50,697 nt of DNA from Deltaproteobacteria bacterium. Its GTDB lineage: Bacteria > Desulfobacterota > DSM-4660 > Desulfatiglandales > B25-G16. Positions 1-49,334 of the stretch are shown piece after piece. The position numbers and the translations under genes were made by a program. The stretch's first letter is position 1; the number at the start of each line of letters is the position of its first letter. Under the pieces are notes generated by a model, which was not told the DNA's origin, ran no database searches, and worked only from the letters and a program-made list of their open reading frames with translations. The stretch covers positions 1-50,697 of the forward strand of contig JAFDHR010000001.1 in the NCBI GenBank assembly GCA_019308645.1, written 5' to 3'.

Positions 1-114
1 GACCGAAGCCCATACCGAATCCCCGACCGAAGCTATTTTGATTACAATCGCTCTTGTCAAAGCGTTTCCTAAAGGACTTCCACACCAGATTATTTTAGGC
101 GGATATAGGCCCGC
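1..114. repeat. Terminal duplication showing circularity (copy 1)
   Basis: These 114 bases are identical to 50584-50697. The shared block has about 33 bp of low-complexity repeat and 81 bp of unique sequence, so the match is not just repeat slippage. It lies inside an open gene that reads straight through the junction. That favours a circular, or circularly permuted, genome of about 50,583 bp over a true physical terminal repeat, though a short direct terminal repeat cannot be excluded. Confidence 0.9.
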
Positions 115-249
115 TATTTTATACATTACATTAATAGCTTTTTCTGCATTAACTCTATCAGCAGGCTTTGTGCATCCACCTATCTCAGTCCACTTTTTCA
201 CATATTCAGGAAATTTTGCTTCCTGTTCTGCGGTTAGATGTGTGATCAA
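1..249 (-). CDS. DUF6745-like repeat protein, N-terminal part (continues at 50583 down to 49714)
   Basis: This is the N-terminal 83 residues of a 372-aa protein interrupted by the window edge. I place the start at TTG 249, preceded by AAAGGAGGG with 7-nt spacing; the TTG overlaps the TGA stop of the upstream gene (246-587), implying translational coupling. The N-terminus has the sequence LTAEQEAKFPEY followed by a helical segment ending in IIWCGSPLGNALTRA, a pattern I associate with DUF6745-type proteins. The rest of the protein is the SVxx repeat region and C-terminal domain described at 49714-50697. Function is unknown. The gene is intact only when the sequence is circularised. Confidence 0.75.
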   Translation of the reverse strand, partial: MITHLTAEQEAKFPEYVKKWTEIGGCTKPADRVNAEKAINVMYKIAGLYPPKIIWCGSPLGNALTRAIVIKIASVGDSVWASV

Positions 250-587
250 TCCATTACCCTCCTTTCGCCTTCCGGGTCATACTCAACCTGATGATGAATT
301 TCGTACCAGCCTGGCGACAACCAAATTGCTCCATGTTCTTGATGTGTTATTTTAGTACCAGGTTCAGCCACTTTCAATAATTTTTCTGCCTCACCTACGA
401 TTTCAAATAATTCTGTTTCGGGATAATCAGCTAATGCTATACTATGATGATGTCCAGTTGCTTCACCGTAAGCTAATATCACTCTATTGTTTACAGGCTT
501 TACTTTTTTCATCTTTTTGCTATCGAATTTTTTGTTCGTCTTAGTGATGCCTACATCTCCTTGTCTAAAGTGATTTTTGTTTCTCAT
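246..587 (-). CDS. Small conserved partner of the DUF6745-like protein
   Basis: This 113-aa soluble protein starts at ATG 587 behind AAAGGAG. Residues 10-12 (GDV), a GEATGHHHSI stretch in the middle, then HQEHGAIWLSPGWYEI and a C-terminal EYDPEGERRV match a small family I remember as regularly encoded next to DUF6745 or pentapeptide-type repeat proteins in bacteria. The clustered histidines suggest metal binding, but this is inference. Its stop codon overlaps the TTG start of the DUF6745-like gene, so the two are almost certainly made together. Function unknown; the pair lies directly downstream of the Tas-like locus on the same strand. Confidence 0.7.
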   Translation of the reverse strand: MRNKNHFRQGDVGITKTNKKFDSKKMKKVKPVNNRVILAYGEATGHHHSIALADYPETELFEIVGEAEKLLKVAEPGTKITHQEHGAIWLSPGWYEIHHQVEYDPEGERRVMD

Positions 588-667
588 ATCTATTCTCCTT
601 TCTTTTACTTCCGTTATGTTTTTGCTGTACTTATGTAATTGCGCATGATATCCCCCCTTTTTTTTGA

Positions 668-785
668 TTTTTAGCTCGGCACTTATGAAACTTCCTCAAA
701 TATTGGTTCACTCGCTTTCGATGAAACCATCTGGTAACATGGTTCACTCTCGAGTTGTGGTACTCTCATTCCCCGTGGCTCACTC
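668..785 (-). repeat. TIGR-like array 2 (downstream of Tas-like gene)
   Basis: Boxes of 10 bp recur every 18 bp. Read on the minus strand, A boxes (GAGTGARCCA) lie at 776-785, 740-749 and 704-713, and a B box (GAGAGTACCA) at 758-767. Degenerate B boxes keep register at 722-731 and 686-695, and a weak A-like box at 668-677. The 8-bp spacers between boxes are all different. A and B alternate, giving a 36-bp full unit. The array begins 7 bp after the stop codon of the 793-1674 gene and is in the same orientation. It shares box sequences and phase with the array at 1712-1883. Confidence 0.85.
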
Positions 786-792
786 AAAACTA

Positions 793-1674
793 TCATTCTG
801 CAAGCATGTGCATATTTGGCGGCTCAATTTCATGTGCATGGCCTAATATACTGATTGCAAAAGGCTTCGGTGGTCTTGTTTGATAATGATATGTATACCA
901 AAAAGTATGAAGATGAGAAAGAAATATCTTAGTTGCATATCTTTCTGCTCTCTGCTGTATGTGCGCAGGTGGCAACATGCCTTGTGAATACCATTTATAG
1001 GCGTCTGTGCTTTTACCTATATTTTTTTTCTGCAATATGCTTTTTGCCTGTTCCGCATATTCGCCGTTCTCATTCCTCTGCTGTTCATATGTTTTTCTTT
1101 CATCAAGGATTTTCCCGTATATATCGTTTTCTCTTGACTTTTGCTTCTTAAAGGAATCTCCTATTTTCCAGCAAAGGACTTTCAATGAAGCATTCCATGG
1201 TCTTTTTTGCCCCTTCGCCCACTTCTGCTGTGGGTTCAGCCCTGCGTAGCTCCATATATGCCCTGCTGTCGGTGCTTTCTCAATGTCAATGTGTGCCAAC
1301 AAGCCAGCTGCTATTACAGGACCTATCCCACATATGGACTTAGCCCATCTTCCTACTATATGATTGTTTGTGTAAACATCAAGCATTACCTTTATCCGTG
1401 TTTCAAAAGTATGTATGATGTCCGATAATACATTTAGGTTATCGTGTGGCTCGGGTACATAACTCTCTTTTTCTTCTTCTGTGGGCTTACGCTTTTTGCC
1501 GTCCTCGTCATAGTACACAGGCTCAACAATACTGCGTATCTGGTTGTCTATTGCCTTTCTAAATTCCTGCACCTGATAATACAAGTCTACAAAGTATCTT
1601 GCTTCCTTGTCTGTTAATTCGGTCCGCGCTTTCTTTAAATCCTTGATAAGATTGTTTAAAATTTGCTTTTCCAT
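793..1674 (-). CDS. Tas-like (IS110 Tnp20/Nop-domain) protein, no nuclease
   Basis: This 293-aa protein starts at ATG 1674 behind AGGAGGT. Residues 1-105 are charged and largely helical (coiled-coil-like). Residues 113-175 carry a helix-hairpin-helix core with GIGP at 116-119, AAGLLAHI and SYAGLNP at 142-148, the signature of the C-terminal Tnp20 domain of IS110-family transposases. A lysine-rich helical tail follows. The N-terminal DEDD/RuvC-like catalytic domain of a real IS110 transposase is missing, and no HNH motif is visible. The gene is flanked on both sides by arrays of alternating 10-bp boxes with 8-bp spacers. Tas proteins of TIGR-Tas systems are described as Nop-domain proteins related to IS110, with or without a fused HNH or RuvC nuclease, using 36-nt dual-spacer RNAs. 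I infer a nuclease-free Tas (TasA-like) protein. A decayed IS110 element is the main alternative, but the open frame and intact arrays argue against decay. Confidence 0.75.
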   Translation of the reverse strand: MEKQILNNLIKDLKKARTELTDKEARYFVDLYYQVQEFRKAIDNQIRSIVEPVYYDEDGKKRKPTEEEKESYVPEPHDNLNVLSDIIHTFETRIKVMLDVYTNNHIVGRWAKSICGIGPVIAAGLLAHIDIEKAPTAGHIWSYAGLNPQQKWAKGQKRPWNASLKVLCWKIGDSFKKQKSRENDIYGKILDERKTYEQQRNENGEYAEQAKSILQKKNIGKSTDAYKWYSQGMLPPAHIQQRAERYATKIFLSHLHTFWYTYHYQTRPPKPFAISILGHAHEIEPPNMHMLAE

Positions 1675-1711
1675 GATATACCTCCTGTTTTTTTATTTGG
1701 CTTCTGGCATA

Positions 1712-1883
1712 TGGTATTCCTTTGTTATATGGTTCACTCTAGACACTTGGCACTCTCGGGTGCAATGATTCACTCAGCTTGCGTGGTACTCTCAAGAACG
1801 ATGGCTCACTCCAACTCTTTGTTACGTTCTAATACAATGGCTCACTCTCAAATCATGGTACTCTCATGACTTTTGGTTAGCTT
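1712..1883 (-). repeat. TIGR-like array 1 (upstream of Tas-like gene)
   Basis: Ten boxes keep an exact 18-bp register. On the minus strand, A boxes (GAGTGARCCA) are at 1838-1847, 1802-1811, 1766-1775 (GAGTGAATCA) and 1730-1739. B boxes (GAGAGTRCCA) are at 1856-1865, 1784-1793 and 1748-1757. Degenerate boxes stay in phase at 1874-1883 (A), 1820-1829 (B) and 1712-1721 (B). All 8-bp spacers differ, for example TGATTTGA, TCGTTCTT, CGCAAGCT, TTGCACCC, AGTGTCTA. One A box, spacer, B box, spacer unit is 36 bp, equal to the reported length of processed tigRNAs. The array lies between a 36-aa ORF and the Tas-like start codon, so one minus-strand transcript could carry array, gene and second array. Confidence 0.88.
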
Positions 1884-1930
1884 TCAAGACCTTCACGAAT
1901 ATAGCTTATATGCCCAAGCGTCATAACAAT

Positions 1931-2041
1931 TTACTTTTTATCACGCTCCCTTTTGGCCTTTATAGCTGCAATAATTTCCTCTTTTGTTTTGTAACCTTCC
2001 TGTCCCTTAATCTTGAATCTGAATGGTGGTAGTTTGTTCAT
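1931..2041 (-). CDS. Small basic hypothetical protein (36 aa)
   Basis: The frame opens at ATG 2041 behind a strong GGAGGTG with 6-nt spacing and ends at TAA 1931. The peptide begins MNKLPPFRFKIKG and ends in a lysine/arginine-rich tail. It has no recognisable domain. It sits between the XRE regulator gene (2107-2301) and array 1 on the same strand, so it would be the first or second gene of the leftward operon. The good ribosome site is the main support. Confidence 0.6.
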   Translation of the reverse strand: MNKLPPFRFKIKGQEGYKTKEEIIAAIKAKRERDKK

Positions 2042-2106
2042 GGCATTCACCTCCAATCAACTTCATCTAATGAAACTTCTTTACAAACATGCCAATCCCA
2101 TCTTGC

Positions 2107-2301
2107 CTAATCTAATAATTCTGATACAGGTATGCCCAAAGCATTCGATACAAGCTTTAAATTAACATTATTGATAGTCTTGACTTTCCCACTTTCGATA
2201 TCCGTTAATGTTGTATATGGGATTCCGGTGTCTTTGCTTAGCCTATATCTTGATATTTCCTTTAGCTCTCTTAATTTCTTGATTTTCTCTCCGACCAACA
2301 T
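2107..2301 (-). CDS. XRE-family (Cro-like) HTH regulator
   Basis: A 64-aa protein consisting almost entirely of one helix-turn-helix: residues about 5-60 contain KIKKLRELKEISRYRLSKD, the turn around GIPYTTLTDIESGK, and a C-terminal GIPVSELLD helix typical of Cro/CI-like folds. The frame is open to 2322, but ATG 2301 is preceded by AGGAGG and is preferred; the upstream ATG would have this AGGAGG inside its coding sequence. It is divergent from the plus-strand 39-aa gene, whose promoter overlaps this gene's 5' leader, so binding there could switch between the two directions. It likely controls the leftward early operon containing the Tas-like locus. Confidence 0.85.
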   Translation of the reverse strand: MLVGEKIKKLRELKEISRYRLSKDTGIPYTTLTDIESGKVKTINNVNLKLVSNALGIPVSELLD

Positions 2302-2315
2302 ATTTTCATGCCTCC

Positions 2316-2344
2316 TTGACATATTATTGTATTTCCGTTATACT
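2316..2344 (+). promoter_or_regulatory. Sigma-70-type promoter for the 39-aa gene
   Basis: TTGACA at 2316-2321 and TATACT at 2339-2344 are separated by exactly 17 bp. The site lies 50 bp upstream of the plus-strand ATG 2394 and overlaps the leader of the divergent XRE gene. Confidence 0.75.
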
Positions 2345-2393
2345 ATTGTCAGGTGCAGCGCCATGTGTCTCCTGATGGCACGGAGGTGATAAC

Positions 2394-2513
2394 ATGGCTA
2401 AAACTAAAACATCTGTGAGCGGCAAGCAACGTAAAAAAATCGTTGTTGTCAAAGGCTACCGTAAAGCCAATGGCAAAAAAGTTCGGCGCCACAGACGTTC
2501 GACACCTGAATGA
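2394..2513 (+). CDS. Very small basic protein (39 aa)
   Basis: ATG 2394 follows GGAGGTG with 5-nt spacing, downstream of a near-consensus promoter. The peptide is strongly basic; its core VVVKGYRKANGKKVRRHRRS resembles the short 'VKGYxRxNGxxVxxHxR' motif found in many small phage and bacterial proteins. It is followed immediately by a hairpin (2516-2541). Nucleic-acid binding is plausible from charge alone; no function is known. It is transcribed opposite to both neighbours. Confidence 0.65.
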   Translation: MAKTKTSVSGKQRKKIVVVKGYRKANGKKVRRHRRSTPE

Positions 2514-2515
2514 CG

Positions 2516-2541
2516 GGAGGGTACTTTTAACAGTGCCCTCC
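2516..2541 (+). terminator. Intrinsic-terminator-like hairpin between convergent genes
   Basis: A 10-bp stem (GGAGGGTACT pairing with AGTGCCCTCC, one G-T pair) with a 6-nt loop begins 2 bp after the stop of the 39-aa gene and 4 bp before the end of the rha-like gene. The T-tract is poor, so termination efficiency is uncertain. Confidence 0.55.
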
Positions 2542-2544
2542 GTC

Positions 2545-3195
2545 TTATGCAGAAATTAAATACTTCCTGCTTATCTCTGCCTTTATATCATGATAGCTGT
2601 ACCCAAGTTCAATGAGTACGCTTATCTGTCTTTCAACTTTCAGCACCTTATCAAGTTCAGAAGCGGAAAATCTATTACGTAAGTTGTCATTCTTTCCAAG
2701 CCCGTATTCCTCTCTAAGCTGTTTTGCGTTCTTGCCGAACACTACTTTATACGCCAAGTCAGTATAATGCTTATATTTCATAGACTTGTGAGGACTTTCG
2801 GGTAATGCTTGAATTGCATTTGTCAAGGCTTCCCGTGCTTCCTTTCCTATTTCCCGGGTAACTTTCCTTGATGTTAATTCCTTTTGCATGATATAGAATT
2901 GTTTGACAAGTGCCTTTTTAAACTTGCGGACAGGTAATGTATTTTGCATATAAGTTATGAGTAGTGTTGCCTGTTCTTCATTCAGACGATATATTTTTTC
3001 AGGTCTTCCTCTTCCAGATTTTGTTTTACGGATTTCAAATCCGATTATTCCAAATTCCTCAATGTCCTTTCGATAATTTCTTATCAATCTTTGTACAGTA
3101 TCATGAGCAACCTTTCCATGCTCCGCAATAACTTCTGATGTGGTAAATGGTACCTCCTGAACGTCATCAGGCTCTAAGAATACTAGCTTTTCCAT
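2545..3195 (-). CDS. rha: Rha-family phage regulatory protein (antirepressor-like)
   Basis: This 216-aa protein matches the phage regulatory protein Rha pattern: an N-terminal winged-helix-like region (residues 15-110) with TTSEVIAEHGKVAHDTVQRL, then IGFEIRKTKSGRGRPEKIYR, and the helix reading TLLITYMQNT. The C-terminal half (about 115-216) is helical with no clear family. Rha-type proteins are phage DNA-binding regulators, often grouped with antirepressors. It starts at ATG 3195 after AGGGAGGAG and has its own consensus promoter, which is embedded in a palindromic operator. It is divergent from the repressor gene at 3386, the usual place for a lysis/lysogeny switch. Confidence 0.8.
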   Translation of the reverse strand: MEKLVFLEPDDVQEVPFTTSEVIAEHGKVAHDTVQRLIRNYRKDIEEFGIIGFEIRKTKSGRGRPEKIYRLNEEQATLLITYMQNTLPVRKFKKALVKQFYIMQKELTSRKVTREIGKEAREALTNAIQALPESPHKSMKYKHYTDLAYKVVFGKNAKQLREEYGLGKNDNLRNRFSASELDKVLKVERQISVLIELGYSYHDIKAEISRKYLISA

Positions 3196-3213
3196 AGTTT
3201 ATCTCCTCCCTTG

Positions 3214-3249
3214 TTTTACATTATACCGGAATTCCAGTTTAATGTAAAA
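3214..3249 (-). promoter_or_regulatory. Promoter of rha-like gene inside an inverted-repeat operator
   Basis: On the minus strand TTTACA (3243-3248) and TATAAT (3220-3225) are 17 bp apart. The two hexamers lie in a perfect 10-bp inverted repeat, TTTTACATTA at 3214-3223 and TAATGTAAAA at 3240-3249, centred on a GGAATTCC palindrome. A dimeric repressor bound here would cover both promoter boxes. The adjacent 3386-3760 repressor is the natural candidate. Confidence 0.75.
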
Positions 3250-3318
3250 TTTTTAAACTGTTATTTCGGTGCATTGTAATAAATTATCTCATTTATCATT
3301 GTTTTTTCTTTAATTATC

Positions 3319-3347
3319 TTGACATTACGTAGTATCTCCATTATCAT
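3319..3347 (+). promoter_or_regulatory. Promoter of the repressor/integrase operon
   Basis: TTGACA at 3319-3324 and TATCAT at 3342-3347 are 17 bp apart on the plus strand, 39 bp before the TTG start at 3386. This would drive the repressor and probably the integrase. Confidence 0.65.
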
Positions 3348-3385
3348 ATATACGGTATTTCGTTATATTACACGGAGGTGGAATT

Positions 3386-3760
3386 TTGTTTAATGAAAAT
3401 AGGTTATTTGGTGACAGACTTAAAGAAGTGCTCGAAGCTAAAGGTGTTTCAGGATATAAGTTGGCAAAAATTACAGGCATACCTCAAAACACAATAAATG
3501 ATGTTAAAAAAGGCAAATCCAAAAGCCCTGCATTAGACTTTGTTATCAAAGTAGCCAAAGCGCTCAACATGACAGTGTCTGAACTTATAGGAGAAACAGA
3601 AGAAAAGTATACAAGTAAAGTAAAGCGACTTGCGGATATAGCAATGAATTTATCTAATGCAAACGTAGACATACTTATTGACATGGCTAACGCACTTGTT
3701 TTAAAGGATAAAGCTTACAATGAAGTAACTGCTACGAGAAGAATTTTAAAAAATGCTTAA
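3386..3760 (+). CDS. XRE-family repressor (CI-like)
   Basis: A 124-aa protein with an N-terminal helix-turn-helix (residues 7-66: RLKEVLEAKGVSGYKLAKIT, then IPQNTINDVKKGKSKSP, ending MTVSELIG) and a helical C-terminal tail that may dimerise. There is no peptidase S24 domain, so it would not self-cleave like lambda CI. The start is TTG 3386, set by GGAGGTG at 3374-3380. It is divergent from the rha-like gene and followed by the integrase, the order expected for the lysogeny control region. Confidence 0.8.
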   Translation: MFNENRLFGDRLKEVLEAKGVSGYKLAKITGIPQNTINDVKKGKSKSPALDFVIKVAKALNMTVSELIGETEEKYTSKVKRLADIAMNLSNANVDILIDMANALVLKDKAYNEVTATRRILKNA

Positions 3761-3806
3761 CAATGTTATATATTTGAATTTTAGGAATACGGAGGCATGA
3801 GGCAAA

Positions 3807-5204
3807 ATGAAAGCGGCTATATATATAAGAGTATCAACCGAAGAGCAGAGCAGGGAAGGTTTTTCCATTCCGGCGCAGCTTAAAGCTTTACGACAATATT
3901 GTAAACAAAACAGAATAGCCATATATGATGAATACATTGACGAAGGAATTTCGGGAGCCAAAGAGGATAGGCCCGAATTTCAAAGAATGTTATCCGACGC
4001 AAAAAGGAGTTCTTTTAACGCCATTCTTGTGCATAAATTCGATAGATTCGCAAGGAAGGTAGAATTGTCTCAGAGAATAAAAAACCAGCTCAGAAAGGCA
4101 AATATTAATGTTATAAGCATAACTGAGCCGATAGAAGATTCTCCTATAGGATTTTTTCAGGAAGGAATGCTGGAACTTTTAGGAGAGTATTATATAAGAA
4201 ATTTATCCGCAGAAGTTAAAAAAGGTCAAAAAGAAAAAGCTTCTCAGGGCTATGCTTTAAATCGTGTTGCGTATGGGTATAAGAATAAAGGTGGCAAAGT
4301 AGAAGTTGTTAAAAGTCAAGCTGCAATTGTGCAGAAAATTTATAACATGTACATTTGCGGAGAAGGTACTACCAAGATAGCAAACTGGCTGAATGATAAT
4401 AATGTGCCAACATATACAGGCATAGGGATATGGAACAGCAGTCAAATTACTTATATTTTAAGAAATTCGACATATATAGGAAATTTAAAATGGGGCAAAA
4501 AAATTTATCCTGACGTGTTCCCTGCAATAATAGACAAAGAATTATTCATAAAGGCACAAACACAATGGCAAAGTGCTGGCCCACGTCCGAGAAGGCATAT
4601 ATACTATAATCAATTTCTTTTATTGGGTTTGCTTTATTGCGGCAACTGCGGGTCGCCTATGCGTATATCAAAAATGCGTTCTAACGGAGGGAAGGGAAGC
4701 AAAGAGTATTTTTATTATACTTGCAGGCTTGCTAGATATAATAAAAAAGAATGTAGATTTTCAAAACTGTATCAATACAAGCTCATTGAAAAACAGGTAA
4801 TAAACGAACTCAAGGGCATACTTAAGGAAATGCCGACTCATATTAATATTAACGAATTAAAGCCTGTAAACATCAATGACTATCTTTCTGATAGAAAAAA
4901 CAAGATACTATCCGAACTTGAACGTGCAAAACAAGCCTATTTAGCAGAAGTTTTTAGTCTTGATGAGTACAAAAAAGTTAAAGAAAAACTTGAAACTGAT
5001 CTTAAAATCATAGAGTTTGAAGAAGTAAAGGACGACAAAAATAAAAGCAAGTTGAACCGAGAAAAGTTAAAAAACAAAATAAAAAATATGTGGGAACAAT
5101 ACCAAGCGGCAAACACTCCGAAGCAAAAAAAAGAGGCTTTAATGGAAGTGGTTGAAAAAATTACAGTCTTTGAAACGCACACAGATATTGTGTTTTACGT
5201 ATAG
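3807..5204 (+). CDS. Large serine recombinase (integrase)
   Basis: A 465-aa site-specific recombinase that should insert the phage at attB and help excise it. Residues 1-150 are the resolvase domain: KAAIYIRVSTEEQ supplies nucleophile Ser10, followed by DEGISGAKEDRPEFQRML and VHKFDRFAR. A recombinase domain follows (about 160-260), then a zinc ribbon with paired cysteines near 277-280 and 306-315, and a coiled-coil insertion near 360-425. Length and order are typical of phage serine integrases. It is separated from the repressor by about 46 bp. No attP core could be identified without a host junction. A strong terminator follows at 5264-5296. Confidence 0.93.
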   Translation: MKAAIYIRVSTEEQSREGFSIPAQLKALRQYCKQNRIAIYDEYIDEGISGAKEDRPEFQRMLSDAKRSSFNAILVHKFDRFARKVELSQRIKNQLRKANINVISITEPIEDSPIGFFQEGMLELLGEYYIRNLSAEVKKGQKEKASQGYALNRVAYGYKNKGGKVEVVKSQAAIVQKIYNMYICGEGTTKIANWLNDNNVPTYTGIGIWNSSQITYILRNSTYIGNLKWGKKIYPDVFPAIIDKELFIKAQTQWQSAGPRPRRHIYYNQFLLLGLLYCGNCGSPMRISKMRSNGGKGSKEYFYYTCRLARYNKKECRFSKLYQYKLIEKQVINELKGILKEMPTHININELKPVNINDYLSDRKNKILSELERAKQAYLAEVFSLDEYKKVKEKLETDLKIIEFEEVKDDKNKSKLNREKLKNKIKNMWEQYQAANTPKQKKEALMEVVEKITVFETHTDIVFYV

Positions 5205-7066: not shown

Positions 7067-10000
7067 TTAATCAATCCATTTATCCTTATATGTCTTTTCA
7101 GCCTTTCTTACTAGTTCATTTCTTTCGGCTTTCAACTTATTGATTTTATCCCTTTTGGCATCCTTTGAATAAATTTTACTTTCTTGAATTTGCCGTATTC
7201 TCTTTGACAACTCTCCCACTTTGTTTGTTATATTGTTCAAGTAATTATACTGGGCTGTCTCTAGAAATCTGCTTTTTGTTAGCTTCGCTTCATTTTTTAA
7301 CCTTCTTAGTCTATCCATTTCACTATAAACAAAGTCCATTGACCTACCAGTCGCAGTCTCGTTAACGGTAAATGCACGTAAAAGAGGGTACTGCGATACA
7401 TTAAGAGAAGGTTTATCCATATCCCCAAGAATAATATCTATCGCATTTAGCCCATATCTACCCAAGCCTCCTGTCAAACCAAGTATTGTGTTTTCCATTA
7501 TTCTCGGTGATGAGAACGGCGTTTCTTCTCCAAAAGTTTTTTCTACCAATCCGGCTGCTGCTTTTGCTGCTTCTGATGTGTATACATCTGCCTGAAAACG
7601 CCTAGGGTAATATTGCTCTCTTTGAGGGATTATTTGTGTTTCTCTAAAGAAGGAATAATTTGTAAGACCTTCAATAATAGGCAATATCCCTGTAAACATA
7701 GTAGGTATTGACTGCTCCTTAACTGTAGCCTTTATAAAACCGTCAAATGCGTCCTTATCCTCCTTCAAAGCAAATCTTAAAAATCTTTCCATTACGTTTG
7801 AAACAAAAGCCACATCAAAAGGTTTAGGTATTCTTGCCACAATATCAGTATCAGGCACAGGTATTAACCAAAATGTATCTCTTAACCAATCTGGCGCATC
7901 ATCAATTGTGGCCTTTTGATTTTCGTTAGCCAAATAATGATATGCTGCATATGCGCCCAGCGAAGAAGCCGTCATCGTGCTAAACAGTTTAGCTGAAACC
8001 TTTATAGGATCTTCTTTTATGGCACGTATCAATTTGCTTTTGCCTTGAATATTTGCATTGAGGAAAGCCACAACTTTGTTAAGTTCTTTAACTGAACTTC
8101 CTGCTCTCGCAAAGTCCATCAAGTCTCTTGCTCTGTATGCAGCTTCTTCAACTGTTGCTCCCTTTCTTAAAGCTGCTCCGAATTCCCCAATTTTTGTAGC
8201 TGATTCTGTAGCATCTGCTATGTTTCTCATTACCGCAAGCCATGACTTAGGGTTTAAAACATTTATAAACTTTTTTGAAGGTGGCTGCTTTACTATCTTT
8301 TCAAGGGTCTCTCTATGCAAGGTCCTATCCATTGATATAATGTTTCCGTACCCAGCATTAGCCCTTAAAAACTTATCGTATAACTCTCCTTTTTTTATAT
8401 AACTGGCAAGTCCGGCCACAAAATCTAAAGGCGTAAACCCTGAACTGCTGACGATAAAAGCATTAAGCACATCACGTATAGGGTTTCTTATAGCGAATTC
8501 GGCTGTCAATGTAGCTCCTGCTCTCAAGAGGCTTGCAGGTTTAGATAAAGCTTTTATCCATAATGGCGACATTTCAGAATTTAAGCTAAGCATAGCTTTA
8601 TATACGCCGGGCTCAACTTCATATTGCACTTTTTCGCCAAACTCATATATATTTACTACATTTTTACGGCCGACTGCTTCTCCCGGTTCAAGCCTGCGTA
8701 CAAATTGATGTTCAACGTCTGCCTTTGCAATTTCCCCCAGTTCAAGCCCTACTCTGCTTCTGCCGGCAACATTTTCAATCTGAAAAGTATTTCTTACCAT
8801 AGACTCGATAGGATCAACGATTTCACGTTCGCTTCCTTTAAGTTTTTTAATCGGTTTTCCTATATTTGCGAATGACTGTCTTAATCCCTTGCCTAATTCC
8901 ACCTTAGCATCATCAAAACTCCTGCTAAGAGGCATGTAATTGGGCCATTTCCTCATCATTGCTGTGGCTTCTGTAGGGTTTATCACTTGTGTTTCAACCA
9001 GTTTTGCCAATAGGTTGTTATTGTAGTTTACTAATTGTTTCCTTGCTTCTTCCATTTCAGGCGAACCAAAACTCTTTATAACATCATCTATTTCTGCATC
9101 AGTAAACCCACTTTGAAGTCCTGCTGCGTTTACGTCTTTTGCATGTACGGCTTCTGCATATGCTCCCAATTGCCTGTAATTATATCCTGCATCCTCAACA
9201 CTTTTTATAATCGGACGTAAATCAGCATCAACAATTCTGTTTGCCCTTTCAGGAACACCTTGAAAAAGCCTGGCTTGCTTATATAAACTTTTTTCTGCTG
9301 AAGGTATTTTGCCTTTGACTCTTTTTTCAAGTTCTTCTAATTCGGCAAATCTGTCAATAAACTGCTCACGTGCTTTAGTCCACTTTTCCCTAAAGCTTGC
9401 TTTAGGCTTTTTCGGGTCATAGTTAATCTTTTTCATAAAAGATTCAGTGTTTTTATTTGTTTGTTCTGCTGCGTTAATTACAGTTTTATTAATTTGTTCT
9501 ATACCCGTCAATTGGCTTGGTATAGTCTTTTCTATTAGTTCCAATTCATTGATTCTATTTTTTAATTTACTAATATTTTGACTTATGTTTGCAAATTCAG
9601 GGGTAAGGGACTTTCCGCTATTAAACAAATCCATTTGTTTTTTTTCTAATGTATCAAGATGTTTTTTTGCAAAAGGTAATGCATCTGCACTTTTTTTATA
9701 ATCCTGTAACATTTCCAAATAATCATTAGCTATTTTAATACTATCATCAAAATTAAGTCCATATTCATATTTTCGATATGTCAAATCATCAATTACATTT
9801 TCTTGTTGTTTTATAGCATTATTTATTCTTTGCGTTAATGATTGTGGTTTTGAAACTTCATTTAATTGTGTCATATTCTTTATTGCATTAGGACTTCTCA
9901 TATTTTCAGATAATGCCTTTAATCCTTTTCCTAATCCATAAAATGCCGCATTAGCAGCAGTATCAAAAAGTAAGTTCTTTGCCGCTTCTTTTGGGATATC

Positions 10001-10612
10001 TTTTGCAGGTAATCCTTCTGACAATGCATCTGCTATACCTAAAGGCCCGCCAATAGCAATGTCTTTTGCACCTTCAACAGCCAATTCTTTTAAAAAACCG
10101 CTTCCTATCTTCCCTGTAATAGGAGAGACAGCTTTTTCTATTGCTGGACCTGCCAAATTATATAAGGTCGCATATTTACTTACGGTACCAGCAATATTGC
10201 CAGCGGTATAAGCTCCCGGGCGTGACTCCCTTGCTATGTCAAATAATTCTCTTCCTCTTTCTCCTGGGAGTAAAAACTTTGAAACACCACCGGTCAAACC
10301 GTAACCGAAAGCTCCTGTTGGCGTTCTGGCGAATTCTTTCATTTCCTCTTGCTTTTGCTCTATAGGCTTTTCGGCCTCCCTTTGAAAATATGAAAATATA
10401 GTTTTAGGGAATTCAAAAGGTGTTATTAATTTTTGCAATGTGCTTCTGTCTCTTGTTGGCTCAATCGTTATCTCTTGTTCAGGAGATGGCTCTTGCTCTT
10501 CTTGCAATCTTCTTCTTTCCAATGGTGTTAAATATTCGATTGTGGTTTTTTCTTCTTTGACCTCTATTTTTTTACTACGCCTGCGCTCTAAAGGCGTTAA
10601 ATATTCAGCCAT
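7067..10612 (-). CDS. Large virion (internal/ejection) protein
   Basis: An 1181-aa protein, the largest in the genome. The N-terminus repeats a short motif twice (EYLTPLERRRSKK and EYLTPLERRRLQE, residues 3-15 and 27-37), a proline-rich linker follows, then long helical segments (residues about 255-450), and a C-terminal half with amphipathic and hydrophobic helices such as ATLTAEFAIRNPIRDVLNAF. The AIRNPIRDVLNAF and the helix 'AGSSVKELNKVVAFLNANIQ' remind me of large polyvalent-protein (LPD38-type) regions of phage internal virion proteins. In podovirus-like phages such proteins are ejected into the cell and form a trans-envelope channel. That role is inferred. Confidence 0.65.
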   Translation of the reverse strand: MAEYLTPLERRRSKKIEVKEEKTTIEYLTPLERRRLQEEQEPSPEQEITIEPTRDRSTLQKLITPFEFPKTIFSYFQREAEKPIEQKQEEMKEFARTPTGAFGYGLTGGVSKFLLPGERGRELFDIARESRPGAYTAGNIAGTVSKYATLYNLAGPAIEKAVSPITGKIGSGFLKELAVEGAKDIAIGGPLGIADALSEGLPAKDIPKEAAKNLLFDTAANAAFYGLGKGLKALSENMRSPNAIKNMTQLNEVSKPQSLTQRINNAIKQQENVIDDLTYRKYEYGLNFDDSIKIANDYLEMLQDYKKSADALPFAKKHLDTLEKKQMDLFNSGKSLTPEFANISQNISKLKNRINELELIEKTIPSQLTGIEQINKTVINAAEQTNKNTESFMKKINYDPKKPKASFREKWTKAREQFIDRFAELEELEKRVKGKIPSAEKSLYKQARLFQGVPERANRIVDADLRPIIKSVEDAGYNYRQLGAYAEAVHAKDVNAAGLQSGFTDAEIDDVIKSFGSPEMEEARKQLVNYNNNLLAKLVETQVINPTEATAMMRKWPNYMPLSRSFDDAKVELGKGLRQSFANIGKPIKKLKGSEREIVDPIESMVRNTFQIENVAGRSRVGLELGEIAKADVEHQFVRRLEPGEAVGRKNVVNIYEFGEKVQYEVEPGVYKAMLSLNSEMSPLWIKALSKPASLLRAGATLTAEFAIRNPIRDVLNAFIVSSSGFTPLDFVAGLASYIKKGELYDKFLRANAGYGNIISMDRTLHRETLEKIVKQPPSKKFINVLNPKSWLAVMRNIADATESATKIGEFGAALRKGATVEEAAYRARDLMDFARAGSSVKELNKVVAFLNANIQGKSKLIRAIKEDPIKVSAKLFSTMTASSLGAYAAYHYLANENQKATIDDAPDWLRDTFWLIPVPDTDIVARIPKPFDVAFVSNVMERFLRFALKEDKDAFDGFIKATVKEQSIPTMFTGILPIIEGLTNYSFFRETQIIPQREQYYPRRFQADVYTSEAAKAAAGLVEKTFGEETPFSSPRIMENTILGLTGGLGRYGLNAIDIILGDMDKPSLNVSQYPLLRAFTVNETATGRSMDFVYSEMDRLRRLKNEAKLTKSRFLETAQYNYLNNITNKVGELSKRIRQIQESKIYSKDAKRDKINKLKAERNELVRKAEKTYKDKWID

Positions 10613-10615
10613 ACA

Positions 10616-12058
10616 TTATTCCTCCTTTTCTTCTTTTTTCTTTTCTTCTTTTTCAAGCGGAGGATTATTACGTTTGCGCTCATAAGCATTTACAAGTCTG
10701 TTGTATTCAACTGAACCTATCTCTGTTATATAGTCATTAATATGCTGTATAAGTTCATCAAGCGCTTCTTCTGCACTTAATTCATCTAAATCTTTTGTAA
10801 TGGCACTCAGTTTTTGTTCTGGAGTAATTTCTTGCTCCTGTGGCATTCTCCGTTGCAATTCATTAATCAATTCATTGTATAGCGTTTCATTGCCATTGAG
10901 GTAATTCAAAGCATTTAGTCTACCTTGTGGACTTAATGCGTATCTTAATGTTTCTTCTGGACTTCTTTGAACTGCACTAAATTGAGGATTCAAGTACGCA
11001 TCAAGTAATTGATTGTATCTGTTGACATCTTCTTGAGTATAGCCGGCAATACCTTCTCCTGCAGCTCCCGAAATCTCCTGCTTTTCCCTGAACAAATCAA
11101 GCTCATTTTGAAAACGCTCCCTCTCAAGAGCGATTCTATCCTGCAAATCTCTTTCTGCAGCTCTGTTTTCTGCTTCTATCTGTTCCATGAATTCTCTTGC
11201 TCTTCTCGATGGTGTTCCTGCAGGTACGCCAAGTATCTGAGAAGCTTCATTGTCCACATATCCTAATTCATTTACTCTGTCCCATGCTCTATCAATGTTT
11301 TGCTGTGATATTTCAATTTCATTAAGCGCCTGCTGATATTGGAATTCTTTTTGCTTCCAATCCCTAGCCCATTGGTCTGCTATTCTGTTATATGATTGTT
11401 GGTCTAGACCCTGCAAAAACTTGCCATAGTCCATTAGTCTGTCAGTTTCACTCATATATTCATTGAAAGCAATCTGCCTATACTGAGGTATAAGTATAGC
11501 AGCTTCCTGAGCTGCCCTATCTGCCGTTATAGTACTGCTCAATATTCCTCTTGAAGCCATTTCTTCACTAACTTTATTTATCGCCTGCTGTTGTGCCTGC
11601 TGCAATGCAATGTCTTTGGCCGGGTCATATTGGAACTGCCTACCTTGAAGCTGCTGTATTATGTCCTGTATTTGCCCGGTATATGGTGACTGATAGTTGA
11701 ATTGTGGCATTTGTGGCAACACAGGTTGTTGCGGTGTCTGCTGTACCGGCTGTTGAATTTGCTGTAAAGGCTGTGCCGTAGGTTGAGTTACAGGCTGTTG
11801 TGTTGGTTGTGTTGCCGGTTGAACTCCTGCGAGTGCTTGTTGCAATGCTCCAGCTGTTTCAGGCCCATATATAGCATCCGCCTGTATATCTTGCTCTGTT
11901 TGAAATTGTCTTAATGCTCCGGCTGTTTTTGGGCCAAATATATTGTCTATAGGACCAACGTCATAACCTAAGTCGGACAATGCACCTTGAAGCTGCCCTA
12001 CTCTTTTATCCGTCATACCTTCCCTTAAATAAGTATCATAACCGGGAACTGTAGCCAT
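10616..12058 (-). CDS. Virion protein with two peptidoglycan-binding modules
   Basis: A 480-aa protein. Residues about 14-77 contain two tandem PG_binding_1-like modules, seen as LGYDVGPIDNIFGPKTAGAL and DAIYGPETAGALQQAL. A Gln/Pro/Thr-rich linker follows (about 80-125), then a long helical region with NYQSPYTGQI at its start and Q/E-rich coiled coil (about 130-330). The C-terminus is extremely charged (EKEEKKKEEKEE). A wall-binding virion protein acting at DNA entry is the best inference. It precedes the large ejection protein by 3 bp and its ATG 12058 follows GAGGTGATA. Confidence 0.65.
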   Translation of the reverse strand: MATVPGYDTYLREGMTDKRVGQLQGALSDLGYDVGPIDNIFGPKTAGALRQFQTEQDIQADAIYGPETAGALQQALAGVQPATQPTQQPVTQPTAQPLQQIQQPVQQTPQQPVLPQMPQFNYQSPYTGQIQDIIQQLQGRQFQYDPAKDIALQQAQQQAINKVSEEMASRGILSSTITADRAAQEAAILIPQYRQIAFNEYMSETDRLMDYGKFLQGLDQQSYNRIADQWARDWKQKEFQYQQALNEIEISQQNIDRAWDRVNELGYVDNEASQILGVPAGTPSRRAREFMEQIEAENRAAERDLQDRIALERERFQNELDLFREKQEISGAAGEGIAGYTQEDVNRYNQLLDAYLNPQFSAVQRSPEETLRYALSPQGRLNALNYLNGNETLYNELINELQRRMPQEQEITPEQKLSAITKDLDELSAEEALDELIQHINDYITEIGSVEYNRLVNAYERKRNNPPLEKEEKKKEEKEE

Positions 12059-27913: not shown

Positions 27914-28936
27914 TTATCCCTCCGCTAATATTTTAATTATCTTTTCGCTTGCCGTTCCATCTCCAAATCTGTAATCAGGCTTATATCTGCCATGTCCAAT
28001 TTGCGAATAAGCAGCTCTTAGTATGTTTGACTCGTTCATGTCAACCTGTATTACATTATTTCCTGTTTCCCTGCCCTCCTGCCGATTTCCAACAAGAACA
28101 GCCGGAATGCCTAAATATGCACCTTCTTTTATGAAGCTTGAGCTATTCCCTATGCAACATCTGGCATTGTATATCAAGTCAATATATTCATCAGGCGATA
28201 AGTCTTTCACAAACTCTGCAGGAGCATAATGTATACGCTTCAACATTGCCTTGGCCCCTGCGTCCACATTCGGATTTACCCATACTTTTTTATACGGCAT
28301 AGACTTAACGGCTTCAATAAGCGGATTTATATCTTCCGGGTCCGTAGTGTTTGGATGATGAAGTATTACAACGTAGTCACCTGGCTTATTCATTGGGTTT
28401 AAGCCATCAAGTGCTGTACTGCCAACCGTATATATATAACCGCATTTTGCTGTTCGCATTACCTCTTTATTACACTCACCATAAACAATGTCATATATTC
28501 TGTCTGCCGAATAATCTGTAACAGGAAAATGTATGTCAGCCAATGCCGTTATAGCATCCCGTACTTTATCATCAATAGTCCCGGTAACATCTCCACCTTC
28601 TGTATGAGCTAAAGTTATATTCTGATAACTTGAAGCAATAGCGACAGATAGCACTTCGTATCTGTCGCCATGAATTAATACACAGTCAGGCTGGATCCGT
28701 TTTAAAATACCTGTTATTTGAGTTAAAAGTAATCCAGCAGTTAAACACATTCCGCTTGTTGTATCTGCATTCACAAGACATTCTACTGTTTCATGTGGGT
28801 AATCTATTTTTGTCCATAGTCCTGAAGCTCCAATTATTAGTTTCAGGTCAATGTCTTTGTGCTCGTGAGCTATCTTTATTACAGACTTAAGCCTACCATA
28901 ATTAGCTCTTGAACCTACAAATACGCATAGTCTCAT
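27914..28936 (-). CDS. neuC: UDP-GlcNAc 2-epimerase (NeuC-like, hydrolysing)
   Basis: A 340-aa enzyme of the UDP-N-acetylglucosamine 2-epimerase family, making ManNAc or a related 2-epimer for NeuB. Visible marks: FVGSRANYGRL (6-16), VLIHGDRYEVLSVA, ALAHTEGGDVTG-type motif with LAHTEGGD, and IGNSSSFIKEGAYLGIPAV near the C-terminus. Length is close to NeuC/NnaA/LegG. It overlaps the upstream gene by 4 bp and precedes the PspA-like gene by 3 bp. Confidence 0.9.
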   Translation of the reverse strand: MRLCVFVGSRANYGRLKSVIKIAHEHKDIDLKLIIGASGLWTKIDYPHETVECLVNADTTSGMCLTAGLLLTQITGILKRIQPDCVLIHGDRYEVLSVAIASSYQNITLAHTEGGDVTGTIDDKVRDAITALADIHFPVTDYSADRIYDIVYGECNKEVMRTAKCGYIYTVGSTALDGLNPMNKPGDYVVILHHPNTTDPEDINPLIEAVKSMPYKKVWVNPNVDAGAKAMLKRIHYAPAEFVKDLSPDEYIDLIYNARCCIGNSSSFIKEGAYLGIPAVLVGNRQEGRETGNNVIQVDMNESNILRAAYSQIGHGRYKPDYRFGDGTASEKIIKILAEG

Positions 28937-33156: not shown

Positions 33157-33300
33157 TTAAAAAACTTTTTTATAAAATTCTTTGTCAATATTTTCGTTGC
33201 ATGATTTACATATATAAGCATAATCAAATGTGCCTGGTCCCGTTTCTATCGTTGTTAAATTATTTATAGACCCGCACTTTATGCATTTTCTCATTAACAT
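33157..33300 (-). CDS. Tiny zinc-ribbon protein (47 aa)
   Basis: ATG 33300 overlaps the dehydrogenase stop (TGATG); an alternative ATG at 33294 is better spaced from GGAGG. It has CIKCGS and CKSCNE pairs around a short strand region, a minimal zinc ribbon. Function unknown. Confidence 0.6.
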   Translation of the reverse strand: MLMRKCIKCGSINNLTTIETGPGTFDYAYICKSCNENIDKEFYKKVF

Positions 33301-34079
33301 CAGCCTCCTCGGGCTCTTATATATTCAACAATTTTGTTTGCAATATAAATGTCTGTTGCTTCCCTTGCTTCTTTGCAGTTTCCGGAAATATGGTTGGTTT
33401 GCGCAGCTCCGTACTGAGTAATGTCAATTTCATTTTTAAAATCATCTGCATAATATAATATTTTATCTTTCAAATATGGTATTAATGCTTTTATATCAAG
33501 AACTTGTTGTCTTGATGTGTTAATAATCAATGTATTTGGCTTTATAATTTCAAGTTCTTTTTTGCCTATGAAATTTTTATTATCGTCAAGTGGTATATGA
33601 ATACTTATTATGTCACTTGTTTTAAGTAAATAATAAAGTTTATCTTTAACAGGGTCATTTTTAGTGTCATACGTATAAATATCCATTCCGTAAGCTTTTG
33701 CTCTTTCTGCTACCATTATCCCTATTCTTCCATATCCTATAATTCCAAGCCGTTTTTTGTATAGTTGAGCAGGTATTTTTTTTATTAGGCTTTGCATTAG
33801 CCACATTGTATGCTCTGCTGTTGATGTAACCTTTTGGCCTTCTGTGCGTTTCCATTCTGCATCAAGGTAGATGACTTTAGGGGCTTTTATGTGATCAACT
33901 CCTGTGCATGGACAGAATACTGGAACATCAATTTTAATTGGTGTGAATTGAGTATAAACATAATCATATCCACAACATTCATTGTATCCGCGCCATGAAG
34001 TATCACAATACGCCGCACTCTCCATTATATTTCGTGCTTTCAAATGTGGCTCGTCAAGCAATAGTATTCTTGGTCTCAT
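33300..34079 (-). CDS. D-2-hydroxyacid dehydrogenase-family protein
   Basis: A 259-aa NAD-dependent enzyme of the D-isomer-specific 2-hydroxyacid dehydrogenase family. GYGRIG marks the Rossmann motif; SIHIPLDDNKNFI, LIINTSRQQVLD and THHI-type catalytic region (QTNHISGN) follow in family order. It is shorter than usual (about 310-330 aa). ATG 34079 was chosen because it is 9 nt after GGAG. In the sugar cassette it might reduce or oxidise a keto-sugar acid; substrate unknown. Confidence 0.8.
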   Translation of the reverse strand: MRPRILLLDEPHLKARNIMESAAYCDTSWRGYNECCGYDYVYTQFTPIKIDVPVFCPCTGVDHIKAPKVIYLDAEWKRTEGQKVTSTAEHTMWLMQSLIKKIPAQLYKKRLGIIGYGRIGIMVAERAKAYGMDIYTYDTKNDPVKDKLYYLLKTSDIISIHIPLDDNKNFIGKKELEIIKPNTLIINTSRQQVLDIKALIPYLKDKILYYADDFKNEIDITQYGAAQTNHISGNCKEAREATDIYIANKIVEYIRARGG

Positions 34080-34095
34080 TGGACTCATTCTCCTT

Positions 34096-34227
34096 TTATT
34101 TTTTGCGTTTTTTAGGCTTCCACCCTTTTTTTCGCATAGTTCCATAGATATATGCGTTCTTTCGCTTACCCTTCAATCCTTTTTTTCTTGCCTGCTTTTC
34201 CAGTTTCTTTTCCAGTTTCTTTGGCAT
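34096..34227 (-). CDS. Small very basic protein (43 aa)
   Basis: MPKKLEKKLEKQARKKGLKG followed by KRKNAYIYGTMRKKGWKP is a lysine-rich peptide of a kind seen between terL and portal in many phages. ATG 34227 follows GAGGTG. Function unknown; probably nucleic-acid binding from charge. Confidence 0.6.
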   Translation of the reverse strand: MPKKLEKKLEKQARKKGLKGKRKNAYIYGTMRKKGWKPKKRKK

Positions 34228-41645: not shown

Positions 41646-42131
41646 TTATATCCCCTCCAAAAACTTTTTGATGTCATACCTGTATCTCGAAATTAGTTTT
41701 CTGCTTTCAATTTCAACACCCTTTGACTCGGTCCAGTCAATAGGTATACTCTTTCTGTCTGCGTGATAGATATAATGCTCAACGTCGTTGGCCTTGACGA
41801 AAAACGTCTTCACTATATCCCGAAAATTAAATACGTACCCTGAAATTATCCGTCTGTACGTTCCTGCCTTCGACATTTCCTCAAGCTTTTTCCCGCCTGT
41901 TATAGCTGAAAATGGAATACTTTTGCCCCTATAGCTCTTAAGTTCTAACAGAAACAGTTTGCCGTCATAAAATAGCATACAGTCGCACATATTCCTTGCC
42001 TGGAATCTCACGTTCTCATTCTTTTCTCCTGCAAAGTTAGCTGTCCCATCCCTAAATCTGTAGTAGTAAACCCATTCCGGTACTGAATTTTTCCAGTCGT
42101 CCTCGAACTTCTTTCCTTCGTTCTTAGGCAT
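41646..42131 (-). CDS. recU: RecU-like Holliday junction resolvase
   Basis: A 161-aa nuclease. The core has Asp50 (MCDCML), then LFLLELKS with Glu63 and Lys65, and SIPFSAI, matching RecU/PD-(D/E)XK resolvases of Firmicutes and their phages. It would resolve recombination intermediates during replication together with RecT. Overlaps the PAPS-reductase-like gene by 8 bp. Confidence 0.8.
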   Translation of the reverse strand: MPKNEGKKFEDDWKNSVPEWVYYYRFRDGTANFAGEKNENVRFQARNMCDCMLFYDGKLFLLELKSYRGKSIPFSAITGGKKLEEMSKAGTYRRIISGYVFNFRDIVKTFFVKANDVEHYIYHADRKSIPIDWTESKGVEIESRKLISRYRYDIKKFLEGI

Positions 42132-42843
42132 TAGTTCGTGCCTCCCAAATGCTTATTTGGTGTCCGGCCCACCATATTTCACTCTCAAATCTTTTTTCAA
42201 GTTGTTCGAATTTGTAATCTAGCCTGAATCTATTCCTGCTTTTTTCATCCATTTTTTTGAGTCTCAGCCATAATTCAGGGTAATACCTGTATAGGCTTTT
42301 CAGTTCTTTCAAATTCTTCAACGGGCAACACCAACAACTCACCCTGTCAAATCTTTCGTATAAGCCGTTCCAGTCAAACCCTTTGTCATAGCAATACTTT
42401 AATGCCTGGCTTTCTACTATTCCCCATTCTATAAGCGGGTACATGACCTTCTTTTCATTGTTCTTTTCTGCTCTACGTAGTTCGTCTGCTGCTATACCGT
42501 GATACTCAATCACATCATCAAATTGTTTCAAATGCTTGCTTATCTGCTGTTTTTTGAATATCTGTGTACACCACCTGTTGCGAAAATCTGGCCATGCGTA
42601 CCCTTGCTGTCCATTCTTCTTCTTGTGCTCAAACATGTAATACTCAAATGTTTTGTCTGATTTCAGCCTCGTTGCTTCCCTGCCAATATGCTTTTCTACT
42701 TTGTCAATATGAGTGTACATGTCAGGGAATTCCATCCCTGTATCACAGAACACTATTTCATCAACTCGCATACCTTTTTCTATCATCATCAGCAACATAG
42801 CTGTTGAATCCTTCCCTCCTGAAAAACTTACTACATGTACCAC
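42124..42843 (-). CDS. PAPS reductase-family protein
   Basis: A 239-aa PP-loop enzyme: SGGKDS at 8-13 binds nucleotide; RWCTQIFK and CWCCPL cysteines are typical of phage and DndC-related relatives. Phage members may supply sulfur, act in DNA modification, or act as decoys; no partner dnd genes are present. GTG 42843 is about 11 nt after GGGAGG. Confidence 0.8.
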   Translation of the reverse strand: MVHVVSFSGGKDSTAMLLMMIEKGMRVDEIVFCDTGMEFPDMYTHIDKVEKHIGREATRLKSDKTFEYYMFEHKKKNGQQGYAWPDFRNRWCTQIFKKQQISKHLKQFDDVIEYHGIAADELRRAEKNNEKKVMYPLIEWGIVESQALKYCYDKGFDWNGLYERFDRVSCWCCPLKNLKELKSLYRYYPELWLRLKKMDEKSRNRFRLDYKFEQLEKRFESEIWWAGHQISIWEARTNA

Positions 42844-48344: not shown

Positions 48345-48857
48345 CTAATTAATTGAGAACTCTTTTTTAAGCTCTTTACATGCCTTTCTTACCTTCCTGC
48401 TAACATGTGCCTGCGACACGTTGTCCATTTTTGCGATTTCTTTCTGCGTATAGCCTAACATTACGCCTCTCAGGTACTTGTTTTCCTTTGCTTCCCTCAA
48501 AATGTCCATGCTGTCAAAATCCTGCTCGTATCCTATTCTTTCACCAAGTTCAAGTTCCACTCCTTCATCATCGGCATAAGCTGTTTCCTGCATAGAAATT
48601 TCATTTGAATAATATTTCTTAATTTTCCTGTTATATAACTTTTGAAGATCCCTCGATATGCTGAACCCTGCATATGTAGAAAACTTAATGTCTTTGTTTT
48701 TATCGAAATGCACACAGGACCTGTAAAGTGCGAATTGAGCTTCTGAAATTATGTCGTCGTGCCACTTTTGAGGCACAAAGCGAAGGTATTTATTTGCAAA
48801 ATACCTTACAAGCCCCTGATTCTTTTCGCACATTTCAGATATTTTTGCTCTGTTCAT
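48345..48857 (-). CDS. Sigma-70-family RNA polymerase sigma factor
   Basis: A 170-aa small sigma factor. Region 2: NQGLVRYFANKYLRF to FSTYAGFSISRDLQKLYNRK. Region 4: MLGYTQKEIAKMDNVSQAHV followed by SRKVRKACKELKK. It is close to sporulation/flagellar-type sigma factors. It may direct host polymerase to phage promoters. ATG 48857 follows GGGGAGG. Confidence 0.88.
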   Translation of the reverse strand: MNRAKISEMCEKNQGLVRYFANKYLRFVPQKWHDDIISEAQFALYRSCVHFDKNKDIKFSTYAGFSISRDLQKLYNRKIKKYYSNEISMQETAYADDEGVELELGERIGYEQDFDSMDILREAKENKYLRGVMLGYTQKEIAKMDNVSQAHVSRKVRKACKELKKEFSIN

Positions 48858-49334
48858 CTAAACCTCCCCGCATTCATCGACTCTGTGAAACTGGTTTGCA
48901 ATTTTCTTAAGTGCTTTCTGGGCGTTCTTGACTTCATCATCATCACAGACAAGCCTGCAAAAATGATATGCTAACTGCGCAGCTATCCTTTTGTCAACTA
49001 CCACATCGAAACTGCAGCACCATAAAGGCCAAGCTGAAAAATCAATGTCTGCTTCTCTCAGGTCTGCTTTTCTCAGGTCTGCTTCTCTCAGGTCTGCTTC
49101 TCTCAGGACTGCCATTCTCAGGACTGCCATTCTCAGGTCTGCTTCTCTCAGGTCTGCTTCTCTCAGGTCTGCTTCTCTCAGGTCTGCTTTTCTCAGGTCT
49201 GCTTTTCTCAGGTCTGCTCCTCTCAGGCCTGCTCCTCTCAGGTCTGCCCCTCTCAGGTCTGCTTTCCTCCCGCCTTCATTGTTTACCCATTTCTTATGCT
49301 CCCGCAATATTTTATCAAGTTTCTGTCTATCCAC
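48858..49334 (-). CDS. Pentapeptide-repeat protein
   Basis: A 158-aa protein. Residues about 25-98 are 14-15 pentapeptides of the form A-[DG]-L-R-x ([24 protein letters not shown]), the square beta-helix fold (Pfam Pentapeptide). C-terminal domain [18 protein letters not shown] and a helical tail. Related proteins (e.g. MfpA/Qnr) mimic DNA and block gyrase; whether this one does is unknown. GTG 49334 after GGAGGTG. Confidence 0.85.
49040..49262 (-). repeat. 15-bp coding repeats (ADLRx)
   Basis: About fifteen 15-bp units inside the pentapeptide gene. Confidence 0.85.

Follow-up and report, generated by a model that had tools for sequence, protein, structure and literature searches.

Here we examined a locus of ~1.2 kb (668-1883, minus strand) with eight guide units, on contig JAFDHR010000001.1, the whole analyzed stretch of which (50,697 nt) is hereafter the window. 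At its center lies tasA (793-1674), an intact open reading frame (ORF) of 293 residues, which the sequence and the ORF list place between two arrays of the same orientation: an upstream array of five dual-spacer units (1694-1883) and a downstream array of three (668-785), the latter starting 7 nt past the tasA stop codon. AGGAGG, similar to a ribosome-binding site (1681-1686), stands between the upstream array and the start codon. A preliminary description, made from the letters alone, had proposed a nuclease-free TIGR-Tas (tandem interspaced guide RNA) locus in a phage, and our findings support a model where the protein is TasA, a solo Nop core without a recognizable nuclease domain. This kind of TIGR-Tas system was already published in 2025 (PMC12045711); the locus is a further example, not a new system.

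The protein belongs to TIGR-Tas, on the concordant evidence of a curated model, sequence matches, predicted fold and array anatomy. The NCBIfam model NF052498 (TIGR-Tas) scores 205 bits, well above its cut-off of 100 (1.1e-60), whereas the IS110 model NF033542 reaches 32 bits, far below its cut-off of 140. With phmmer the protein matches TasR (9mty, 4.5e-13) and TasH (21kl, 5.4e-10), and these two are also the best PDB matches of its predicted fold; middling structural matches other than TasH, TasR, IS110, Prp31 and Nop-type chains were set aside as helical bundles. An IS110 core is recognized at residues 112-152 (Pfam Transposase_20, 1.6e-6), with the motifs GIGP and SYAGLNP, and none of DEDD, RuvC or HNH gives a Pfam match in the 293 residues; the ORF list and Pfam thus agree with what the preliminary description had read from the translation. 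Its assignment to a nuclease-free TasA form also holds: in the structural alignments the first aligned residue of the model is 18-20 with TasH (facing TasH residues 64-66) and 23 with TasR (facing residue 112), and so early a start leaves no room for the N-terminal nuclease of either relative. Compared with 22 other aligned relatives, the protein retains 73 of the 74 columns invariant among them, the exception being residue 178, which is changed; it also carries an extra insertion of ~24 residues in a helical hairpin, common to 7 of these 22. No PADLOC model matches the TasA protein.

The arrays follow a single architecture, in which an edge repeat, 8 nt, a loop repeat and another 8 nt recur with a period of 36 nt, so that 10-nt repeats and 8-nt spacers make up the eight dual-spacer units; the co-oriented flanking arrays, box and spacer lengths and period of the preliminary description are correct to the base. 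The canonical repeats are GAGTGARCCA (edge) and GAGAGTRCCA (loop), the two being told apart by the truncated edges at array ends, as in PMC12045711, and by the same pattern in relatives. Exact copies of GAGTGA[AG]CCA lie at 713, 749, 785, 1739, 1811 and 1847, and those of GAGAGT[AG]CCA at 767, 1757, 1793 and 1865; in the window, with both strands checked, these ten boxes are confined to the two arrays and to the minus strand, the remaining copies being degenerate. Degenerate edge repeats bound the upstream array at its 5' end (1883-1874) and at its 3' end (1703-1694), the latter read by eye since the parser ends this array at 1704, and the downstream array ends with a 3'-truncated edge repeat, GAGCTAAAAA (677-668). 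The outermost upstream unit, U0, consists of spacer A AAAGTCAT (1873-1866), a loop repeat (1865-1856) and spacer B TGATTTGA (1855-1848). In the canonical unit U2 (1776-1811) edge GAGTGAGCCA, spacer A TCGTTCTT, loop GAGAGTACCA and spacer B CGCAAGCT follow one another, and the first downstream unit, D1 (750-785), combines edge GAGTGAGCCA and loop GAGAGTACCA with spacers CGGGGAAT (A) and CAACTCGA (B). In order, the upstream spacer pairs are AAAGTCAT/TGATTTGA, TTGTATTA/AAGAGTTG, TCGTTCTT/CGCAAGCT, TTGCACCC/AGTGTCTA and TATAACAA/TATGCCAG, and the downstream ones CGGGGAAT/CAACTCGA, TGTTACCA/TCGAAAGC and ATATTTGA/TAAGTGCC. Both repeats of the canonical units have box C/D-like GA...CA ends. When scored with a model of alternating edge and loop repeats, the two arrays reach 79.3 and 47.0, whereas the highest score is 11.6 among 100 simulated sequences of 5 kb, 7.5 for the plus strand and 10.5 for the remainder of the minus strand; built from the family consensus, this model checks recognizability and retains some dependence on the window. 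The 36-nt spacing was also reported by an independent repeat finder. As described in PMC12045711, TIGR arrays have two alternating repeats of 8-12 nt and spacers mostly of 9 nt, with exceptions such as the 8 nt of SpTIGR. The arrays do not have the form of a CRISPR array, with two kinds of 10-nt repeat here versus a single repeat of about 25-36 nt with spacers of similar length, a comparison of repeats made with no search for cas genes across the window.

The association of such arrays with this protein extends to its relatives. Of 5,815 candidates in a protein search, 5,177 were homologues at E <= 0.001, and we fetched the best 80 of 462 confirmed viral loci, 16 loci from genome contigs and 3 from a single-sequence scan (one of which recurs among the 80); adding the virus record that contains the window (L001) and the TasH locus of the Salicola phage (L005) brings the loci to 100, and the window itself makes 101 sources. 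Dual-repeat arrays occur in 92 of the 101 sources and, after 12 near-duplicates including L001 are dropped and the window counted, in 80 of 89, in line with the TIGR-Tas membership first proposed. Across 87 loci (11 being omitted: L004, L099, L100 and eight near-duplicates) the array is only downstream in 59, only upstream in 11 and on both sides in 11, with none found in 6; the two-sided layout seen here is in the minority but already known, arrays having been described as upstream and/or downstream of the tas gene (PMC12045711). Over 1,323 edges and 1,351 loops of the window and its relatives, C occupies position 9 in 96% and 93%, and A occupies position 2 in 95% and 92%, respectively, percentages that lean upward given that the parser's model favors these letters. 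Judged by their most frequent letters, edge and loop end in the same two in 77 of 81 sources and in the same three in 40 of 81. No TasA relative was found in the plasmid collection; the phage collection gave 3 distant records, in a listing that may leave out records very near the window. Clustering of neighboring genes across the fetched loci yielded no shared partner to be taken forward.

The arrays of close relatives are plastic. Among nine phage pairs with tasA 91-97% identical in nucleotide sequence, some of them overlapping, units are common only in part. For instance, L042 and L044 share 11 units (up to four mismatches allowed) of 24 and 15; units have been lost or added inside the array while its 5' end is retained, and L042 has two more at the 3' end. 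Across the nine pairs, 1.3 to 9.4% of spacer positions are changed in shared units, figures lowered by the matching limit, versus a tasA difference of 3.3 to 8.5%, and the repeats change too. Gain and loss of units and point changes in spacers were seen in arrays 3' of tasA (L042, L044, L045, L037, L062 and L080). The unit TCAGTTGC/ATATATGA is identical in L042, L044, L045 and L080, although tasA of L042 and L080 are only 75.6% identical over 765 nt, so that an exchange of whole 36-nt units between phages would explain this shared unit most simply. A comparable comparison of arrays was not found in the accessible text of PMC12045711 or in the TIGR-Tas literature searched, a scope with supplements and most subscription journals outside it.

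Among known systems, the closest in kind are TIGR-TasA systems of the dual-repeat type, for example FpTIGR of Flavonifractor plautii (PMC12045711), which share the solo Nop protein, the alternating edge and loop repeats, the 36-nt period and arrays upstream and/or downstream, in a family found in phages. As far as FpTIGR is described there, its spacers are of 9 nt (18 nt per pair), whereas the window has 8-nt spacers and 10-nt repeats, short arrays of five and three units, degenerate loops in half of its units and the hairpin insertion. TasH, from Salicola phage CGphi29, and TasR (9mty) have the Nop core and the array logic in common with the present locus, and the TasH system also uses 16 nt per spacer pair (PMC12045711); unlike them, the protein here has no N-terminal HNH or RuvC domain. 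The IS110/IS621 bridge-RNA recombinases, in contrast, possess a DEDD catalytic domain and a single bridge RNA, whereas the guides here lie in an array. Compared with box C/D small nucleolar ribonucleoprotein-type proteins (Nop5, Prp31), the target would be DNA rather than RNA.

What exactly TasA does is, in the words of the paper that describes it as the commonest TIGR effector, "less apparent"; the protein binds 36-nt RNAs, and the roles considered for it include a block to transcription or replication and assistance to integrases (PMC12045711). A 2025 review suggests viral competition and anti-defense for phage TIGR-Tas, the name TasA being absent from its accessible portion (PMC12385481). 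By analogy with TasR and TasH (PMC12045711 for processing to 36 nt, pairing with two strands, unwinding and bending in TIGR relatives), it is likely that the arrays are transcribed and processed into 36-nt guide RNAs (tigRNAs), each of which would extend from the middle of one edge repeat to the middle of the next. Such a tigRNA, bound by a TasA dimer, would lead the dimer to DNA with a match to spacer A on one strand and to spacer B on the other, where bound TasA would likely unwind and bend the target and block transcription or replication. Because TasA has no cutting domain, the effect should be of the binding type, a block rather than a cut.

We searched for guide targets as spacer A, a gap of 0-2 and the reverse complement of spacer B, a presumed geometry that we derived from PMC12045711, using its cut rule and the 8-nt length of the 3' overhangs; the rule is worded there in two versions, with the cut placed 5' or 3' of the fifth pair, and only one version is compatible with such overhangs in this order. 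Three wrong geometries, the opposite order being one of them, and pairs flanking an edge repeat served as controls. In the phage's own genome (the window) the eight units have no site with 0 or 1 mismatch, and with 2 mismatches there is 1 site in the target geometry versus 2 in each wrong geometry and 2 for six edge pairs; the inverted wrong geometry gave an additional single 1-mismatch site. Likewise, for the window and related loci, a search of each source's own fetched DNA with 1,170 loop pairs yielded no exact site and 2 with one mismatch, compared with 0 exact and 0-3 one-mismatch sites in the controls, which included 1,154 edge pairs. In 1.43 Mb of loci, near-duplicates included, 1,281 loop pairs gave 1 exact and 133 one-mismatch sites, no excess over 1,331 edge pairs (6 and 121) or the wrong geometries (0-3 and 104-124). 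In 4.02 Mb of viral DNA, 1,047 loop pairs and 1,067 edge pairs showed no excess at any gap from 0 to 5, the four units that had served to fetch loci being omitted; both of these larger tests required an exact or near-exact match in one half. In three loci that have a related terminase there were 0 sites at up to 1 mismatch, against 1 in the inverted control, and the opposite order of A and B likewise produced no excess.

Exact-pattern scans of the whole collection covered U2, D1 and two units conserved in relatives, which matched 86 stretches, 8 stretches, and at least 120 and 77 stretches, respectively. The U2 and D1 matches, when examined, revealed no coherent target. Those of U2 were taken as chance rather than as true targets: the largest related group comprises 11 of the 86 proteins, and 33 of the 86 reflect a codon-phased motif, RKLKN, in mostly unrelated proteins. 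A gap of 1 occurs in 59 of the 86. A similar bias is present for the relatives' units, with gap 1 in 50 of 77 and, for the other unit, gaps 2, 1 and 0 in 61, 50 and 11 of 122 among the matches listed; these were counted by gap only, in scans with no wrong-pair control. The pooled 4.02-Mb test displays no gap bias of this kind, and in the exact U2 matches the bias is likely an effect of codon phase. Taken together, these results argue against frequent self-targeting, as they do against a strong enrichment of targets in the sampled phages; host, rare or more-mismatched targets would escape them. The preliminary description had envisaged paired spacers matching opposite strands and the silencing of rivals, plasmids or host genes; the paired search returned no target in the own phage or in viral DNA, and among the possible targets there is an argument only against the phage's own genome. 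The target probably lies elsewhere, and we infer other phages, plasmids or host genes; the guide set appears to be directed outward and subject to rapid change.

The genomic setting is that of a phage. The virus record holding the window (G001) has 50,718 bases with the same 36 bases at both ends and is probably a complete, circularly mapped genome; it carries tasA on the opposite strand at 9900-10778, the window thus being a rotation of it. A serine recombinase and C1-like and Rha-like regulators make a temperate lifestyle likely. Relatives of the recombinase are named Anaerosolibacter, Anaerotignum and also Caulobacteraceae, which makes a Clostridia host no more than a guess. Read along the minus strand, the features are in turn a helix-turn-helix (HTH) regulator, a small 41-residue ORF (1931-2056), the upstream array, AGGAGG, tasA, the downstream array and a 113-residue ORF with no function assigned (246-587). 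The regulator, a 71-residue Cro/C1-type HTH protein (2107-2322; Pfam HTH_26, 8.7e-11), is a possible regulator of an array and tasA transcript, which a predicted promoter-like site (2323-2352, minus strand; CTGACA - 18 - AATAAT, 10/12 in a consensus scan) could start, running through HTH gene, array, tasA and array; the signal is weak, with 20 promoter-like sites in 1-3900 versus 12.5 (sd 3.6) in shuffles. On the plus strand, promoter-like sequences at 2315-2346 (TTGACA...TATACT) and 3318-3349 (TTGACA...TATCAT), 72% alike over 32 nt, lie near the two HTH regulators, which may share an operator. Elsewhere, the minus strand encodes a protein similar to phosphoadenosine phosphosulfate (PAPS) reductase (42124-42843), which matches the SspD (4.4e-29) and DndC models of DNA phosphorothioation defense, a pentapeptide-repeat protein (48858-49334; Pfam, 6.5e-24) with a DNA repeat of about 15 nt, adjoined by a sigma-70-like protein gene (48345-48857), and two metabolic-type genes, for a UDP-GlcNAc 2-epimerase (27914-28936) and a D-2-hydroxyacid dehydrogenase-like protein (33300-34145). 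An ORF crossing the window ends contains a 12-bp tandem repeat (1-31 and about 50286-50697; L001 3143-3585) that encodes a four-residue repeat, SVxD/SVxA, and DUF6745 (49714-50643) probably belongs to the same ORF.

Several observations weigh against a functional, target-binding TasA system. The alternation of boxes noted in the preliminary description stands, with the small correction that the loop repeats of four of the eight units are degenerate (GAACGTAACA, AGGAATACCA, GATGGTTTCA and GGAAGTTTCA); the outer edges of U0, U4 and D3 are degenerate as well, and some units may be decaying. A simple consensus scan showed no terminator-like site after either array, a feature that published arrays, which begin and end in a truncated edge repeat, typically have (typical, not defining; PMC12045711). 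The parser detected no array in 9 of the 101 sources (L004, L070, L071, L073, L092, L093, L096, L099 and L100), and no search, from the own phage through up to 4.0 Mb of viral DNA to the collection scans, returned a target. TasA could also recruit a partner that cuts. The same degenerate loops and outer edges, together with the change at residue 178, would suit a decaying relic, in which the protein persists and the arrays are inactive; yet the ORF is intact, all the other invariant columns are retained, outer edges are truncated in published arrays too (as far as PMC12045711 describes them) and all eight loops keep the final CA, which makes decay unlikely.

The position of the locus, beside a lysogeny region with an HTH regulator, a Rha-type regulator, a C1-like HTH protein and the serine recombinase, all within 1-5204, invites the idea of self-regulation, with tigRNAs leading TasA to the phage's own operators or genes and switching lysis and lysogeny. 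Against this, the eight units have no own-genome site at 0 or 1 mismatch, their 2-mismatch sites are no more numerous than in controls, and the 1,170 pairs in own DNA (0 exact, 2 one-mismatch) do not rise above controls either; we regard such a switch as quite unlikely. The same neighborhood could suggest that a bend made by TasA joins att sites for the serine recombinase, which lies 2.1 kb away, and aid to phage integrases is among the proposals in PMC12045711. However, a single att site needs one guide whereas the guides are many and variable, and any guide aimed at the phage's att site ought to find a match in the phage, which has no site with 0 or 1 mismatch; a role in integration is thus very improbable. 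Finally, Pfam and PHROGs label the protein a transposase, as if it were an IS110-type fragment next to an unrelated tandem repeat. We consider this identity refuted, and its chances negligible, by the absence of a DEDD match, the contrasting NF033542 and NF052498 scores and, above all, the recurrence of the repeats next to relatives in 80 of 89 sources.

Overall, we consider it quite probable that this is a TIGR-TasA locus with two arrays, whose eight guide units would be processed into 36-nt tigRNAs that direct a TasA dimer to a two-strand target, binding without cutting, the target probably lying outside its own phage. Far more tentatively, it may be a programmable repressor of foreign DNA that neither cuts nor acts on its own genome, its guide set being refreshed as phages gain, lose and swap whole 36-nt units; this would amount to a rapidly evolving memory that needs no acquisition gene. 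The lack of own-genome targets and the unit-wise turnover with drifting spacers narrow the options, and a small locus in an apparently complete virus record offers an easy test case for the function of nuclease-free TIGR systems.
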